Notes: generated from the letters alone by a model not told the origin. Shown: positions 13,715 to 20,668, counted from the first letter of the stretch. The stretch is DNA of 64,000 nucleotides from Granulosicoccus sp. (GCA_023301795.1 JALZVU010000008.1:1-64000); one strand, 5' to 3'. A program made the numbers and translations.

Positions 13715-15625
13715 TCAAGCAATCTGGCGGGCGGGCTGTTTTTTCAAATGCACCAGCAACAGCGATATGGCCGCAGGCGTAACACCCGATATTCGCGAGG
13801 CTTGTCCTATCGTGTCAGGCCTGTGTTCGCTGAACTTCTGCCGTACCTCGTTTGACAAGCCTTTTACCTCTGCGTAGTCCACCCAATCGGGCAAGGCAAT
13901 CTGTTGCTGGGTTCGCGTTTTATCGATATCTGCTTGTTGACGATCCAGATAGCCTGCGTACTTGCCTTGTATTTCCACTTGCTCTACCACCGCGGGTGAC
14001 GGCTGGTTAGCATCTGGTTCAACAATCTCCAACAGCTGGCCAAGCTTGATTTCAGGCATTTTCAACAAATCAGGAAGCCGCTTTTCGCGCTCGAACTTCA
14101 TCCCAGTTTGCTCGCACAGTAGCTTGGCTTGTGCTGTATCGGGCCTAATCCATAGGTCTTTTATATGTGTTTTCAGCTGCTCAATGGCCTCGCGTTTCTG
14201 GCTGAAAGCCTGCCAGCGCACATCGTCGACAATACCCATCTGGCGTCCGATTTCAGTAAGCCGCAAGTCAGCATTGTCTTCACGCAGCAGCAAACGATAC
14301 TCGGCACGACTGGTGAACATGCGGTAAGGCTCTCGTGTACCACGGGTAATGAGATCGTCGATGAGCACGCCAATGTAGGCTTCGTCACGACGTGGCGTCC
14401 ATGGCTCTAGGGCCTGAACCTTCCGGGCAGCGTTCAATCCAGCCATCAGCCCTTGGGCTGCCGCTTCCTCATAACCTGTGGTGCCGTTAATCTGACCGGC
14501 GAAAAACAACCCTGCTACCGACTTGGTTTCCAGTGATGCACGTAAACCGCGAGGGTCGAAAAAATCATATTCGATGGCATAGCCGGGGCGCGTGATGTGC
14601 GCTTTTTCAAAACCCTTAATCGACTGCACATACTGAATCTGGATATCAAACGGCAAACTAGTGGAGATGCCATTGGGGTACACCTCGTGTGTAGTCAGAC
14701 CTTCAGGCTCGATAAAGATTTGGTGTGAGTTCTTGTCACTGAAACGCACCACCTTATCTTCAATAGAGGGACAGTAGCGCGGCCCCACACCTTCTATATC
14801 CCCGGAAAACAAAGGAGATCGGTGCAACGCATTTCTGATCAGATCGTGCGTTTGCTCGTTGGTTTGCGTGATGTGGCAATGCACTTGCCTAGGGTGATCC
14901 TCTACGCTTCCCAGATACGAAAACACAGGCCGCGGCTCATCACCCGGCTGCGCTTGCAGAGTATCGTAGTTAATAGTGCGCCCATCGATACGAGGCGGTG
15001 TCCCTGTCTTTAGACGGCCCGTCTCGAACGGCATCTCACGCAGTCTTGCGGCCAGTGTCATAGACGGTGGATCGCCCGCCCTACCGGCCGACTGGTTGGC
15101 CTCTCCCACGTGAATTTTGCCAGCCAGAAAGGTGCCCACAGTTAGCACTACCGTGTGGGCTTTGAAGTGCACCCCCATCTGGGTAATGACACCTGAGACG
15201 CGCGACTGCTGGGAACCCGGCGAGGACTCTTCTGACAGAATCAGGTCATCCACCGCTTGTTGGAAAATCGTCAACCCGGGCTGGTTTTCCAGAATTTGCC
15301 GTATGGCTGAACGATAGATAACCCGGTCAGCTTGGGCTCTTGTGGCTCGTACTGCTGGGCCTTTGCGAGAATTGAGTGTGCGAAAGTGAATACCGGCCTT
15401 GTCTGCGGCAATCCCCATTGCGCCGCCCAAAGCATCAATTTCCTTCACCAGATGCCCTTTGCCGATGCCACCAATGGCAGGGTTACAACTCATCTGCCCC
15501 AGAGTATCAATATTGTGCGTTAACAAAAGCGTGGCGGCACCTGCGCGCGCAGAGGCAAGCGCAGCTTCGGTACCGGCGTGGCCGCCGCCAATAACAATTA
15601 CGTCAAAATGGATGGGGTACTGCAT
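13715..15625 (-). CDS. mnmG: tRNA uridine-5-carboxymethylaminomethyl modification enzyme MnmG
   Basis: FAD-binding partner of MnmE that modifies wobble uridine 34 of several tRNAs. The N-terminal dinucleotide fold reads [19 protein letters not shown]. The GidA signature region ([15 protein letters not shown]) and the C-terminal MnmE-binding helices are present. The length of 636 residues is typical. A good sigma70 promoter is 32 bp upstream (15657-15686). Unlike the usual arrangement, mnmE is not adjacent: about 3.6 kb of foreign-looking content intervenes. Confidence 0.97.
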
Positions 15626-15656
15626 GGCAAAGCCCGGTTATTCACTGAATGTGGTG

Positions 15657-15686
15657 ATTATACGGGCTATTGAGCCATGCAATCAA
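15657..15686 (-). promoter_or_regulatory. sigma70 promoter of mnmG-rsmG-parA-parB
   Basis: On the minus strand: TTGATT, an 18-bp spacer and a perfect TATAAT, ending 31 bp before the mnmG ATG. A near-ideal -10 with an acceptable -35 makes this the likely driver of the four-gene operon. Confidence 0.75.
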
Positions 15687-15802
15687 AAGGCTAATCGAGA
15701 GCAGCTCCACAAGTTCTCACACAAGCTTGTCAGATTGCGTTTGTAGGTCAACATCAAAACAATTCTGGTACGGTATGAAATTGCGGGTAGATAATCCAAA
15801 TC

Positions 15803-16348
15803 ATGAGCAGACAACTCTCAGATAGAGATGCTTTTTACGAAAAAATGTACTTTCATGAGTTGGCAGAGCGTGATCGCCTGGATGACCGATTTCGTACGTT
15901 ACTTACCATTGTGGTTATTGTGTTTGCCATGATCAGTTATCTGTTTAATGCCGTTGTTATCGACGATGTCTCAAACGTGCCTTTGCTATTCTGGCTGGTT
16001 TACGCCATTGCAGTTGCTTCGTTTATTGCTGCCATCACCTGTTACATCAAAGCGTGGCATAGCCAACACTACAACGCGTTTCCAATGTTGCACGACATTG
16101 AACAGTATATTGATCAGATTCAAACATATTATAGAGAGCAGACCGATGAACGTACGGCCATGCAATGGACAGAACAGGCGTTTAGCGATTACATGCGCCA
16201 GTCTTTTATTGACCATGCAAGTTTTAACGTTCGCGCAAACGATAACAAACGCTTCTGGCTGTACTACGGCAACAGCTTTATCATTAGCGCTTTCTTGTTT
16301 ACCGTAATGGCGTTTTTTCCTGTGTCACACACTTTTTTCGATCTTTAA
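15803..16348 (+). CDS. three-helix integral membrane protein of unknown function
   Basis: I do not recognise the family with certainty. The 181-residue protein has a charged N terminus (FYEKMYFHELAERDRLDDRF), two adjacent transmembrane helices (about 32-52 and 60-82), a roughly 70-residue soluble helical segment, and a third helix at 154-175. Paired N-terminal helices plus a cytosolic stretch recall membrane effectors of the SLATT or Pycsar-TM kind, but no signature proves this. It is the first gene of a plus-strand group that breaks the mnmE-mnmG neighbourhood. A polyproline micro-ORF and an ABC exporter follow. Confidence 0.7.
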   Translation: MSRQLSDRDAFYEKMYFHELAERDRLDDRFRTLLTIVVIVFAMISYLFNAVVIDDVSNVPLLFWLVYAIAVASFIAAITCYIKAWHSQHYNAFPMLHDIEQYIDQIQTYYREQTDERTAMQWTEQAFSDYMRQSFIDHASFNVRANDNKRFWLYYGNSFIISAFLFTVMAFFPVSHTFFDL

Positions 16349-16455
16349 AATAAAGGCCTCAATCTTTTCACTATAAGGATTGGGTGATTTCATAAATCGG
16401 CCCTGGTTGGCATGTATTCTCGACAAGTGTAAGCCCGGCTAACGAGATATTCGTT

Positions 16456-16566
16456 ATGACAAAAAGACCTGCACCACCTCCTCCACCTCCCCCACGGATT
16501 ATTCAAATGCCGCCCAAGGCACCTGCGCCCGCAACTACACCCGACAAAGCAAAAGAGCCCCGTTGA
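16456..16566 (+). CDS. 36-residue polyproline micro-protein
   Basis: Too short for the ORF track. ATG at 16456 opens MTKRPAPPPPPPPRIIQMPP and runs to TGA at 16564-16566. Proline makes up 16 of 36 residues, including seven in a row after RPA. There is no signal peptide or hydrophobic segment. The stop overlaps the TTG start of the next gene (TTGA), suggesting translational coupling. A Shine-Dalgarno-like CGAGAT is only weak. A Pro7 run usually stalls ribosomes and needs EF-P, so a leader or regulatory role is possible, as is a true small protein partner. It could be a chance ORF, but the composition and junction argue otherwise. Confidence 0.55.
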   Translation: MTKRPAPPPPPPPRIIQMPPKAPAPATTPDKAKEPR

Positions 16567-18383
16567 ACCAATCTACCCAAAAGCTTGCCTCATCCGAACA
16601 ATCAGCCCTATCCACGTTATGGCAGCTAAAACCGTTTTTGTCTGCCTACCGTGCCAGAGTGTTTGTCGCAGCATTAGCCCTGTTAGTCGCTGCAGCTGCA
16701 ACTCTTGCCATTCCATTGGCTTTTCGCTTTCTTATTGATCGGGGTTTCAGCGTCCCAGATGCGGTTAATGGTATTGAACCGGGCGACGTTAACCGTGTTT
16801 TCCTGACGCTGTTTGCGGTAGCACTGGTGCTTGCCATGGCCACTGCTATTCGCTTTTATTGCGTGTCCTGGCTGGGAGACAGAATTACCGCGGACATTCG
16901 CAAGCAGGTGTTCGCTCAGGTGCTAAAACAAGATCCCGTTTTTTTTGAAACCCTACGCACAGGGGAAGTACAGTCTCGATTATCCAGTGACACTACGCTT
17001 ATCCAGTCATTGATAGGCACCAGTATTTCTTTGGGACTGCGCAACGCATTGTTATTCATTGGTGCACTCATGCTGATGATCTGGTCGAGCCCTGCACTTG
17101 CCAGCATTATCGTTGGGTTACTGGTACTGGTTGTGGTGCCAATCCTTGTCGTTGGCAGGCGTGTGCGTAAATTATCACGCGATTCACAGGATAAATTGGC
17201 CGATACCGGTGCCTTGGCTAACGAGACGCTTAACGCCATGCAGACGGTGCAAAGCTATGTGCGCGAAGACATGGAATCACAGCGCTATGCAGATGCTGCT
17301 GATCAGGCATTTGCCACTGCTTTGCGGCGAAACCGTCATCGATCGTTTCTAACAGCTCTGGCTATTACGCTTGTATTTGGATCCATCGTGTTCGTTTTGT
17401 GGTTAGGTGCCAATGCCGTCATGGATGATCGAATGACACCGGGGCTGCTAACACAATTCATGCTCTACGCTGCCATTGTTGCCGGCTCCACAGGTGCTCT
17501 GGCTGAAGTTATCGGCGATGTACAACGTGCTGCAGGCGCAACAGAGCGACTGCTTGAGTTGATGAACGCAAAAGCTGGCATTACATCAGGGCATGGTGTT
17601 GTGCCACAAAGCGGAACAGCCGGAGCAACGGTATCACTGAACAACATCCATTTTAAATATCCAAGTCGCCCAGACACCCCTGCCCTGCAAGATGTCAGCT
17701 TTGAATTGTTACCAGGAACTACGGTTGCTCTGGTAGGACCCTCTGGTGCGGGTAAAACAACGGTTTTGCAACTGCTGCTAAGATTCTATGACCCGCAGTC
17801 GGGCACCATTGAACTGAACGGCATTCGCAGCAGCGATCTGGCGCTCGATGAGTTACGACAGGCAGTAGGACTGGTCTCGCAAGAGAGTATGGTGTTTTCT
17901 GAAAACGTGTCGAACAACATACGTTATGGAAAACTGGATGCTAGCGACGAGGAGGTATATCAAGCCGCCGCTGATGCACAGGCACTGGAATTCATCGAGC
18001 GCCTGCCCGATGGTTTTGATACCTATCTTGGCGAACGGGGTGTGCGGCTATCAGGTGGCCAACGTCAGCGACTATCCATCGCCAGAGCGCTACTGAAAAA
18101 CCCACCCTTGTTATTACTCGATGAAGCTACCAGCGCTCTGGATGCCGAAAGTGAATCTAAAGTACAGAAGGCGCTGGATAGGGCAATGAGTGGCCGTACC
18201 ACCCTTGTAATTGCACACCGGCTGGCGACTATTGTTAATGCTGATCAGATTATCGTGATGGATCAAGGGCGAGTTGTGGACTACGGTACACATTCCCAGC
18301 TACTAACGCGTGGCGGCTTGTATGCAAAGCTGGCCTCGATGCAATTTGGCCAAGCCACAAATAAATATGCTGCTATCGAATGA
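16563..18383 (+). CDS. ABC transporter, fused permease-ATPase (MsbA/LmrA-type exporter half)
   Basis: Half-size type IV exporter expected to dimerise in the inner membrane. An N-terminal six-helix ABC transmembrane domain covers residues about 25-310. The ATPase has Walker A GPSGAGKTT (about 392-400), signature LSGGQRQRLSIARAL (about 496), Walker B LLLLDEATSALD and the H-loop IAHRLAT. At 606 residues it is full length. TTG is the only plausible start, and it overlaps the micro-ORF stop by 4 bp. It resembles MsbA-like lipid or multidrug exporters, but MsbA is normally next to lpxK, absent here. Substrate unknown. Confidence 0.9.
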   Translation: MNQSTQKLASSEQSALSTLWQLKPFLSAYRARVFVAALALLVAAAATLAIPLAFRFLIDRGFSVPDAVNGIEPGDVNRVFLTLFAVALVLAMATAIRFYCVSWLGDRITADIRKQVFAQVLKQDPVFFETLRTGEVQSRLSSDTTLIQSLIGTSISLGLRNALLFIGALMLMIWSSPALASIIVGLLVLVVVPILVVGRRVRKLSRDSQDKLADTGALANETLNAMQTVQSYVREDMESQRYADAADQAFATALRRNRHRSFLTALAITLVFGSIVFVLWLGANAVMDDRMTPGLLTQFMLYAAIVAGSTGALAEVIGDVQRAAGATERLLELMNAKAGITSGHGVVPQSGTAGATVSLNNIHFKYPSRPDTPALQDVSFELLPGTTVALVGPSGAGKTTVLQLLLRFYDPQSGTIELNGIRSSDLALDELRQAVGLVSQESMVFSENVSNNIRYGKLDASDEEVYQAAADAQALEFIERLPDGFDTYLGERGVRLSGGQRQRLSIARALLKNPPLLLLDEATSALDAESESKVQKALDRAMSGRTTLVIAHRLATIVNADQIIVMDQGRVVDYGTHSQLLTRGGLYAKLASMQFGQATNKYAAIE

Positions 18384-18740
18384 TAGAGAAGGTGTTTTGT
18401 ATATCGTCTTGAATCACTGAGTAGTGTCGTTGATCAAGCGCTAAATCACCTGTTTTCCAGCAAGTCATAAAGCCAGCGAGGATCAGGCAGTAGCGCCTAG
18501 CACTGCGCTAACAACACGTGCCGGGTAGCCTGAAATCTTCTTCAAGAATGAATCTTCGCAGCAACGTCGCAGCGCGCATGTTGACCTTTGGCGGGGATAG
18601 GCTTTCACCCGCGATTTTTTCGAAATAGACTTTGGGCTGGCGAAGTAAAGTGACTCAGCAGGATCCATTGCCACGAACGTTTGCAGCAGCGAAAACGGAC
18701 CAGCAGATACGCCTTCGCGGAAATACATCTAAAAAGGTGC
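18384..18740. other. degenerate stretch after the ABC exporter
   Basis: No credible gene. A minus-strand ORF (18483-18728) directly follows the DUF1016 remnant, but it has no recognisable content and is arginine/cysteine rich in a way typical of off-frame reading. It may be decayed sequence of whatever gene once followed the nuclease. Confidence 0.4.
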
Positions 18741-19089
18741 TCATGACATTCCCGTGTTTTTGCCTTCCGCCAATCGGGCTTTGATTTCTATCAAGGCCGA
18801 GTGAAGCGTCTCCTCCAGCACTTCTTTAGGCGGCAATTCTGTCCAGTATTCTGCCATCATGATGTTGTCTTTTTGCAGATTCATCAGTTCGACTTGTTCG
18901 GTACCCGCCTCCGCACAGAGAATCAGGCCAATGGGTGACGCTTCATTCGGCTGACGTTCGTACTTATAATGCGCTGTTGACCGAAGCGACCGCCTGAGAC
19001 TTTCCGCGCGAAATAAAGCCCCGCAAATCTGTCAATAGATCCGGCGAATTCTGAGCAGCATTATCGAATGGGGTGAGATCGTCGTTCAT
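18741..19089 (-). pseudogene. DUF1016/YhcG-type PDDEXK nuclease, collapsed by internal deletion
   Basis: Two ends of one protein are joined. The N-terminal piece (from ATG at 19089) ends LLTDLRGFISRGKSQAVASV then NSAL, matching the start of the DUF1016 N-terminal domain. In the +1 frame this continues as YKYERQPNEASPIGLILCAE and MAEYWTELPPKEVLEE, the characteristic C terminus of the family, stopping at 18741. Roughly 200-250 residues are missing, including most of the nuclease core, and the join is out of frame. These proteins are commonly encoded beside type I restriction-modification genes; none is present here. Identification is from memory of the family pattern. Confidence 0.8.
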
Positions 19090-19195
19090 GGTGTGGTTGT
19101 GCAGTGACTCGTAAATGTAACTGGGTTGGACGATTATTTTCTCGAGGCAGGCAGATTTGATGTTTTTCAGTTGGGTGGTGTGTTTGGAGATTAGC

Positions 19196-20545
19196 TTATT
19201 TTCCAACACAAAAATTTGAAAATATCTCACCCAGCAAATCTTCGCTGTCGAAGCGACCAGTAATCTGTTCTAACGCTTGCTGTGCAATGCGTAGCTCCTC
19301 AGCTGCAAGTTCTGGCATCTGGTTTTCTTCCAGACGCAGCAGCGCATCACTGGCAGCCTGTCGTGCAGATTCGATAGCATCAACATGACGCCTGCGTGCA
19401 ATGTAGACGCCTTCCATCTGGTCGTCATGACCCGATAGCGCCAATAGATGCTGACGTAGCACATCGATACCTTGTCCGGTCTTGGCGGATACACTCAAGG
19501 TTGCATCGTATTCACTAATCAATCCTTGAAGCTCTTCACTGTTCATAAGATCAGCTTTGTTCAGCACTATACTCAATCGGCTCTTTGCAACAAAAGGAAG
19601 AACTGGCATCACAGGTGCAGAGGCATCAAGAATTATCAGTACATGATCCGCCTCATCGACTGCCTTGCGAGCACGTTCGATACCTAGTTTTTCAACAGGA
19701 TCATTGGTCTCACGTACACCTGCAGTATCAATAACATGCAGCGGCACACCGTCTATCGTTATGTCAGCTTTGAGCACATCACGTGTGGTACCGGCAATGT
19801 CTGTCACTATCGCCGCTTCATCGCCTGCCAGATGGTTGAGTAAACTAGATTTACCCGCGTTTGTGGTACCGGCGATGACCACGTTCAAACCGTCGCGGAG
19901 TCGTTGCCCTTGCGACGCCCGTGACAGGAGAAGATCAAATTGTTCCACAAGTGATTGGGCACGTGTCTGCAGATGGGGATCATCGAGAAAGTCAATTTCC
20001 TCTTCACTGAAATCCAGCGCTGCCTCCAGCCAGACACGTAACGCAATCAACTCTTCGTTGATCACCTGTACCTGTTGCGACAATTCACCACGCATCGCGC
20101 GTACTGCCGCACGCGCAGCCGCTGCACTACTACTTTCTATGAGATCGCTGATCGCTTCAGCTTGTGCAAGATCCAGCTTGTCGTTGTGGAATGCTCGCTC
20201 CGAGAATTCACCGGGGCGTGCCGCTCTGGCACCCAGTTCGATCACGCGAGTCAACAGTAGATCGAGGATAACTGCACCACCGTGCCCTTGTAACTCAAGC
20301 ACGTCTTCACCCGTAAATGAGTGTGGAGCACAAAACAATATTGCCAGGCCCTCATCGATAACGGCTTGTTGCTTATCGAGGAAAGGCAAATAGTGGGCGT
20401 GGCGGTTGTTCAGCTGGACGCCAGTAATGTATTGCGCAATAGCGCGTACGTCAGGGCCACTGATACGCACAATACCGATTCCGGCCTTACCTGCGCCAGT
20501 GGCTATCGCTGCAATGGTATCAGTAGACCCGGTGTGGTCGTTCAC
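19196..20545 (-). CDS. mnmE: tRNA modification GTPase MnmE
   Basis: GTPase partner of MnmG in wobble-uridine modification. The N-terminal formyl-THF-binding domain starts DTIAAIATGAGKAGIGIVRI, the G domain has GTTNAGKSSLLN, DIAGTTRD and NKAD, and the C terminus is the FCVGK cysteine motif. I start at GTG 20545 (449 residues), because the track's ATG at 20650 would read through a terminator and a 15-bp hairpin and adds 35 residues without homology. Confidence 0.95.
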   Translation of the reverse strand: MNDHTGSTDTIAAIATGAGKAGIGIVRISGPDVRAIAQYITGVQLNNRHAHYLPFLDKQQAVIDEGLAILFCAPHSFTGEDVLELQGHGGAVILDLLLTRVIELGARAARPGEFSERAFHNDKLDLAQAEAISDLIESSSAAAARAAVRAMRGELSQQVQVINEELIALRVWLEAALDFSEEEIDFLDDPHLQTRAQSLVEQFDLLLSRASQGQRLRDGLNVVIAGTTNAGKSSLLNHLAGDEAAIVTDIAGTTRDVLKADITIDGVPLHVIDTAGVRETNDPVEKLGIERARKAVDEADHVLIILDASAPVMPVLPFVAKSRLSIVLNKADLMNSEELQGLISEYDATLSVSAKTGQGIDVLRQHLLALSGHDDQMEGVYIARRRHVDAIESARQAASDALLRLEENQMPELAAEELRIAQQALEQITGRFDSEDLLGEIFSNFCVGK

Positions 20546-20570
20546 GTGCTGAGATAGATTGGTGCAGAGC

Positions 20571-20627
20571 AAAAAACCTGTTTGTTCGGCAGATTCAAAC
20601 GGGAACTCCCGGAAGATAACAAACAGG
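20571..20627 (-). terminator. branched intrinsic terminator after yidC
   Basis: On the minus strand CCTGTTTGTT pairs with AACAAACAGG 31 nt later and is followed at once by six T. Inside lies a small CGGGA-GT-TCCCG hairpin, so the structure would be branched. It lies just upstream of mnmE, so it likely separates the rpmH-rnpA-yidD-yidC transcript from mnmE. Confidence 0.6.
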
Positions 20628-20633
20628 CGAATG

Positions 20634-20668
20634 ACTGGATCGTGATGCAATCCGCATCACGATCCAGT
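20634..20668. repeat. perfect 15-bp inverted repeat between yidC and the terminator
   Basis: ACTGGATCGTGATGC, a 5-nt AATCC loop and GCATCACGATCCAGT form an uninterrupted 15-bp stem, 15 bp after the yidC stop. There is no T tract directly after it on either strand. It may act with the adjacent terminator as a 3' mRNA stabiliser, or be a mobile-repeat (REP-like) copy. No second copy was noticed in the window. Confidence 0.8.

Follow-up and report, generated by a model that had tools for sequence, protein, structure and literature searches.

Several described systems share features with the gene pair reported here. In the passages of PMC12847820 that cite it, type IV Thoeris comprises a TIR protein producing N7-cADPR and a caspase-like protease, and only these two components are named. 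Our pair resembles this system at three loci (L092, L095, and L125), where ThsB-like TIR and caspase genes lie directly upstream of it, and at a fourth (L113), where a caspase gene is found, whereas the pair also occurs without TIR or caspase genes. When the system is defined by a TIR NADase and a caspase-like protease in one operon, the 64,000-nucleotide stretch of Granulosicoccus sp. DNA analyzed in this work (the window) contains neither, and both are present in one phage subfamily only. An earlier mention of the linked pair in the original type IV Thoeris paper is possible.

The caspase-nuclease (canu) and nuclease-protease pairs (PMC12799240) are likewise small mobile gene pairs that are repeatedly joined to unrelated antiviral systems, in one version with a caspase; they carry a pro-nuclease, whereas the pair described here is formed by a membrane protein and a polyproline peptide. 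The interval between gpA and gpQ (old/tin) of P2-like phages is described as an antiviral hotspot in PMC9122126. One of our pairs (L107) lies at exactly that place, together with PD-Lambda-5, and the main text of that paper contains no module matching the description of the pair. The small effectors SLATT, 8xMP, and PycTM are likewise small helical membrane proteins with a cytosolic helical part; our membrane proteins match them faintly, with all Pfam and NCBIfam scores for SLATT and 8xMP under the curated cut-offs. To our knowledge, these families have no polyproline partner. The same sequence family as our membrane protein is represented in PHROGs v4 by phrog_36961, a cluster that has no assigned function and does not include the polyproline partner. 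Defense modules with transmembrane effectors are already known; the novelty lies in the strict pairing with a polyproline microprotein. No description of the pair was found in the literature, subscription papers and supplementary tables being outside the reach of the search.

The locus between mnmG and mnmE

In the window, mnmG and mnmE bracket the following genes:

13715-15625, minus strand: mnmG, left flank of the insertion site
15803-16348, plus strand: membrane protein of 181 aa, member of phrog_36961, with three transmembrane (TM) segments, N-terminal FYEKxYFHE, and a central N..ND motif
16456-16566, plus strand: polyproline microprotein of 36 aa, MTKRPAPPPPPPPRIIQMPPKAPAPATTPDKAKEPR, with a proline run and an R-x-[VIL] motif
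16563-18383, plus strand: ABC exporter of 606 aa, TIGR02204 (MsbA_rel), 781 bits, passing the cut-off of 780.4 bits; by synteny a resident core neighbor outside the module
18741-18884, minus strand: C-terminal remnant of a DUF1016/YhcG nuclease, matching PDC-S02 with E 6e-8; a separate relic
about 18967-19077, minus strand: N-terminal remnant of the same DUF1016 gene, matching PDC-S02 weakly (E 0.004)
19196-20650, minus strand: mnmE, right flank

The anatomy given by the initial annotation, three intact plus-strand genes and one broken minus-strand gene between minus-strand mnmG and mnmE, is confirmed in its details: (i) the predicted three-helix protein has three TM segments by hydropathy, at residues 35-53, 61-79, and 156-174, (ii) the 36-residue ORF with seven consecutive prolines ends in a TGA (16564-16566) that overlaps the exporter's TTG start at 16563, and (iii) the two fragments of the deletion-scarred nuclease match the two ends of the PADLOC model PDC-S02. 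The proposal that these genes together form a mobile cassette stands for the membrane protein and the microprotein and falls for the exporter, which is resident, and for the DUF1016 remnant, which is a separate relic. The unit is smaller than initially held: only the 181-aa membrane protein and the 36-aa microprotein belong together.

To describe the history of this site, we compared the host with 26 congeners (27 genomes in the genus sample). At the threshold used, 22 of the 26 gave a match to mnmE and 13 a match to the exporter. In eight congeners (G006, G008, G012, G014, G019, G020, G024, and G025), the exporter occupies the space between mnmG and mnmE and, as in the window, converges on mnmE and diverges from mnmG; in four more it adjoins one flank, mnmE in G016 and mnmG in G018, G003, and G007. 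The compact state is represented by G020, with 375 bases between mnmG and the exporter and 81 bases between the exporter and mnmE; in congeners without the exporter (G002, G005, G017, and G026), mnmG and mnmE are separated by about 50-330 bases. On this synteny, the exporter is old local core, a resident neighbor that predates the arrival of the pair, and in the host genome the pair appears to have been inserted between mnmG and the pre-existing exporter gene. The arrangement with the exporter is a stable core layout in one clade, and the pair is absent from all 26 congeners. The exporter as cargo of the cassette is thus excluded by its position in congeners, and the other loci that we read around the pair lack it.

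The TTG start of the exporter is common to the window, G008, and G020, and 17 of the 19 bases around it are identical in G020, a weak match identified by position. Since this start and its surroundings are old, the last codons and the stop of the microprotein ORF probably lie in old leader DNA of the exporter. The overlap of stop and start appears to have arisen incidentally, when the pair was inserted immediately 5' of a start that was already there, and does not look like a conserved coupling. Two further candidates were rejected: the micro-ORF as an upstream leader of the exporter, which has no equivalent 5' of the exporter in 12 congeners, and the exporter as a part of the module, on congener synteny.

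Both the mnmG-exporter and the exporter-mnmE gaps hold unrelated cargo in other species of the genus. The interval corresponding to 15626-19195 of the window is a variable site, with unrelated cargo in most species; examples are proteins of 585-686 aa in G008, G012, and G025. Because the exporter-mnmE gap contains unrelated cargo or nothing in congeners, the DUF1016 remnant is a separate relic. An intact relative of the broken nuclease (64% over 39 aa) was found in another genome (L133), where Pfam identifies DUF1016_N (E 3e-45) and YhcG_C (E 4e-48) and the gene is placed between genes reading as hsdM and hsdS.

Recurrence of the membrane protein and the microprotein as a pair

The membrane protein was absent from all 94 relatives searched, including the 26 congeners. 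A tblastn search of plasmids revealed one weak family on Pseudomonas syringae plasmids (22% over 170 aa), in which the homologue adjoins a tyrosine integrase and the end of the membrane gene is accompanied by an ORF, MSNQKPPPPPPPPMRFVRDHGKNLPKSPPPPPPKKD, that has no annotation in the records. The absence from relatives and the tyrosine integrases beside the module on these plasmids demonstrate its mobility. Homologues on Photobacterium and Vibrio plasmids also bear polyproline tails or ORFs. On the P. syringae plasmids, the pair is directly followed by a gene for a 368-aa protein without Pfam or NCBIfam match (L069:4658-5764).

A profile built from three of these sequences identified 13 loci in IMG/VR, in all of which the microprotein is encoded directly 3' of the membrane protein; L116 was added by a subsequent subfamily search. 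In the reverse test, a DNA pattern for the microprotein alone retrieved 12 viral contigs, eight already known and four new, and the membrane protein is encoded upstream in all 12, the four new ones included. A search with phrog_36961 matched five of 398 further genomes of the phylum, two with clear pairs (L129 and L130). The total amounts to 24 loci, some of them near-identical, in which a polyproline ORF either lies directly 3' of the membrane protein or is fused in frame with it; they come from several bacterial lineages and span phages, plasmids, an integron, and chromosomes. The co-occurrence of the two genes, raised as a question initially, is thus recurrent, and the exporter is missing from every other locus read. 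No polyproline partner was found for the distant members L106, L126/L141, and L144, and L127 and L128 are cut at contig ends. A search of GTDB species contigs and IMG/VR with the single membrane protein, too divergent a query, gave no match, as did the strict microprotein pattern in GTDB contigs, six different queries against INPHARED phage records, and a search of E. coli genomes; the microprotein alone yielded only noise among relatives (E about 0.02-0.1).

The microprotein is conserved as a protein. Among ORFs no longer than 60 aa, those with five prolines in a row and a proline content of 25% or more number one in the 64-kb window, the microprotein itself, and none in 343 kb from congeners, which argues against a chance match. 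In most copies, a proline run (7-9 residues) is followed by R-x-[VIL]; L099 has runs of three prolines only. The motif P3+ x0-2 R x [VIL] is shared by 13 microproteins out of 18, that of the window (PPPPPPPR-I-I) among them, with 0.93 expected after shuffling. Residues outside the run, TRNVRGDVRP and R-x-[VIL], are conserved as well. The dN/dS ratio of the microprotein is 0-0.17 in 20 comparisons from four clusters of related loci, comparable to that of the membrane protein, with 18 synonymous and no nonsynonymous changes between L117 and L124. The proline codons vary synonymously, so it is the protein that is conserved and not a DNA repeat, and the concern that the micro-ORF might evolve without purifying selection can be dismissed.

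Most free microprotein starts are preceded by strong Shine-Dalgarno sites. Such sites were also observed in L129 and L090, where the proline tail is in frame with the membrane protein (in L129, GGAGG before an internal ATG), and free microprotein is probably made there too, judging from these signals. In the window, the Shine-Dalgarno site is weaker and the gap longer (107 bases) than at most loci. Tandem free copies were found in L103 (three) and L130 (two).

The phrog_36961 profile aligns residues 10-171 of the window protein with positions 8-166 of 245 (E 3.7e-6) and matches all 14 aligned membrane proteins, at best with E 1e-20. The window protein has no match to any model of PADLOC-DB 2.0, and its scores for 8xMP (PF24838; 18.9 bits, E 0.0014, against a Pfam gathering cut-off of 30 bits) and SLATT (NF033634; 15.9 bits against an NCBIfam cut-off of 41 bits) are below threshold. 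Among the 14 members, 8xMP has two weak matches and the PADLOC model PycTM has one (E 2e-4). No Pfam, NCBIfam, or PADLOC family covers the membrane protein, and no curated functional family covers either it or the microprotein.

The AlphaFold model of the membrane protein (pLDDT 85.8) consists of helices 2-53, 61-86, 96-113, and 116-179. In this model, TM1 and TM3 run on into helices that we take to be cytosolic and that bear the conserved YEKxYF-E and N..ND; the orientation is deduced from the loop joining TM1 to TM2, which is short and poor in charge. Comparison of the model with PDB and viral folds gave nothing at E<0.001, the matches being uninformative helical ones. In the model of a fused form, the polyproline tail is mostly of low confidence and gives no sign of docking. 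Given three TM segments and an N-terminus in the cytosol, the tail of a fused form would lie in the periplasm, a poor fit with regulation in the cytosol unless translation begins at internal starts.

Neighbors of the pair in phages, plasmids, and chromosomes

The pair is repeatedly placed among antiphage genes or in hotspots: such contexts were observed, as plain counts among the few loci read, for L107, L092, L095, L125, L113, L115, and L126. In the P2-like phage L107, the pair lies between the portal gene gpQ (PF04860) and gpA (PF05840) and adjoins a D12 methyltransferase and PD-Lambda-5_A (E 1e-170). In L092, L095, and L125, the ThsB-like TIR and caspase genes are on the same strand as the pair and form one tight run with it; for L113, of the same subfamily, the caspase alone is confirmed. 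This repeated operon suggests a variant of type IV Thoeris with an added membrane module, as read from gene order. An OLD/AriA/GajA-like ATPase and a NYN protein are encoded near the pair in L115, and a divergent homologue in L126/L141 lies inside a type I restriction-modification operon. The chromosomal copies L142, L143, and L145 stand alone beside housekeeping genes, as in the window, with no defense island. The proximity to phage-defense genes looked for at the outset is found at the former loci and not at chromosomal singletons.

In L116 the pair is on the strand opposite to the tail genes S and V that flank it, and in L110 it is close to gene D and a repressor-like gene. The Photobacterium copy (L085) is located between attC-like repeats of a Vibrionaceae integron.

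Some of these loci have additional features. The phage operon with TIR, caspase (Peptidase_C14), membrane protein, and microprotein genes occupies L092:3309-5433, L113:4937-6650, L125:11049-13157, and L095:735-2848; the TIR gene of L095 (789-1200) has an in-frame stop (TAA near 1026), possibly an assembly error, and the caspase, membrane protein, and microprotein genes are open. The homologue in L141:5636-10379, without a polyproline partner, overlaps hsdR by 4 bases and is followed by a second EcoEI_R_C-like protein. In the integron cassette L085:5042-7011, a TIGR02391 gene accompanies a membrane protein gene with a polyproline tail and a second polyproline ORF, which is free. A homologue adjoins gyrB in two species belonging to the same genus (L145:128-802 and L146:16-387, the 3' end cut by the contig edge) and may be a stable resident there. 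A gene annotated as Mov34/JAB was found near a decayed copy (L087).

Possible functions of the pair

The pair is a widespread, horizontally moving two-gene module, and from the sequence comparisons we consider it fairly probable that it acts in phage defense or prophage immunity, as a membrane effector with a proline-rich regulator. The module consists of the three-TM membrane protein (phrog_36961) and one or more free polyproline microproteins. Its service in phage defense or prophage immunity is the part proposed with most confidence. With less confidence, the membrane protein would be the effector, a helical oligomer of the inner membrane that, once triggered, damages the membrane or closes it; we infer this role from the presence of TM segments. 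Least confidently, the microprotein would regulate it from the cytosol as a polyproline-II ligand, docking through R-x-[VIL] and either holding the effector silent or licensing it. Infection would shift the balance between effector and regulator, and in the TIR-caspase operons a caspase cut would do so. Counting against this reading are the copies that are alone beside housekeeping genes (L142, L143, L145, and the window) and the divergent members L106, L126/L141, and L144, which lack the polyproline partner.

Superinfection exclusion, in which the membrane protein would stop the DNA of a rival phage from entering through the inner membrane, the microprotein serving as a structural partner and no cell death following, suits a small membrane protein and the morons of P2-like prophages L110 and L116, beside a repressor or opposite to late genes; we regard it as unlikely, for it leaves the TIR-caspase-pair operons, the integron cassette, and the stand-alone chromosomal copies unexplained. 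The pair could also be an addiction module selected for maintenance of mobile elements, with a toxic membrane protein and the microprotein as antitoxin. In line with this proposal, both genes are small and adjacent, they occur on plasmids, phages, and an integron, and free microprotein copies are amplifiable in tandem. It is nevertheless doubtful: at every locus the toxin-like gene precedes its partner, the microprotein lacks a DNA-binding part, fused forms occur, and addiction alone does not account for the TIR-caspase linkage.

Long proline runs are established ribosome-stalling sites, and nearly all copies retain the run. If a run of 7-9 prolines stalled ribosomes in an EF-P-dependent manner, expression of the membrane protein or of a downstream gene might report on translation during infection, the peptide itself doing little. 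This is improbable, given that TRNVRGDVRP and R-x-[VIL], unneeded for stalling, are conserved outside the run, that the downstream gene differs in every context, and that L099 has only its runs of three. The mobile export cassette considered initially, in which the exporter would secrete the microprotein or be regulated by it, draws on the overlap at 16563-16566 in the host genome; with the exporter being older resident core that lacks the pair in congeners, and no other locus examined having an ABC exporter beside the pair, its probability is close to nil.

Under the preferred reading of a defense module, the TIR-caspase operons may permit a more specific mechanism, put forward tentatively and with little confidence: the pair would be the execution arm of a TIR-signalled caspase, with the microprotein plugging a membrane pore and the caspase removing the plug, and elsewhere, for example in the window, another trigger would act. 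If true, the plug would make the pair a bacterial counterpart of caspase-gated pore formation that evolved independently of gasdermin.

Genes for such small proteins are routinely overlooked, as the P. syringae microproteins without annotation in plasmid records illustrate. The module comprises two short genes and is therefore easy to test. Polyproline ligands are best known from eukaryotic signalling; if the pair acts in phage immunity, the paired polyproline microprotein would be an unusual bacterial use of such ligands, and the pair would represent a portable membrane module common to prophages, integrons, and TIR-caspase systems.
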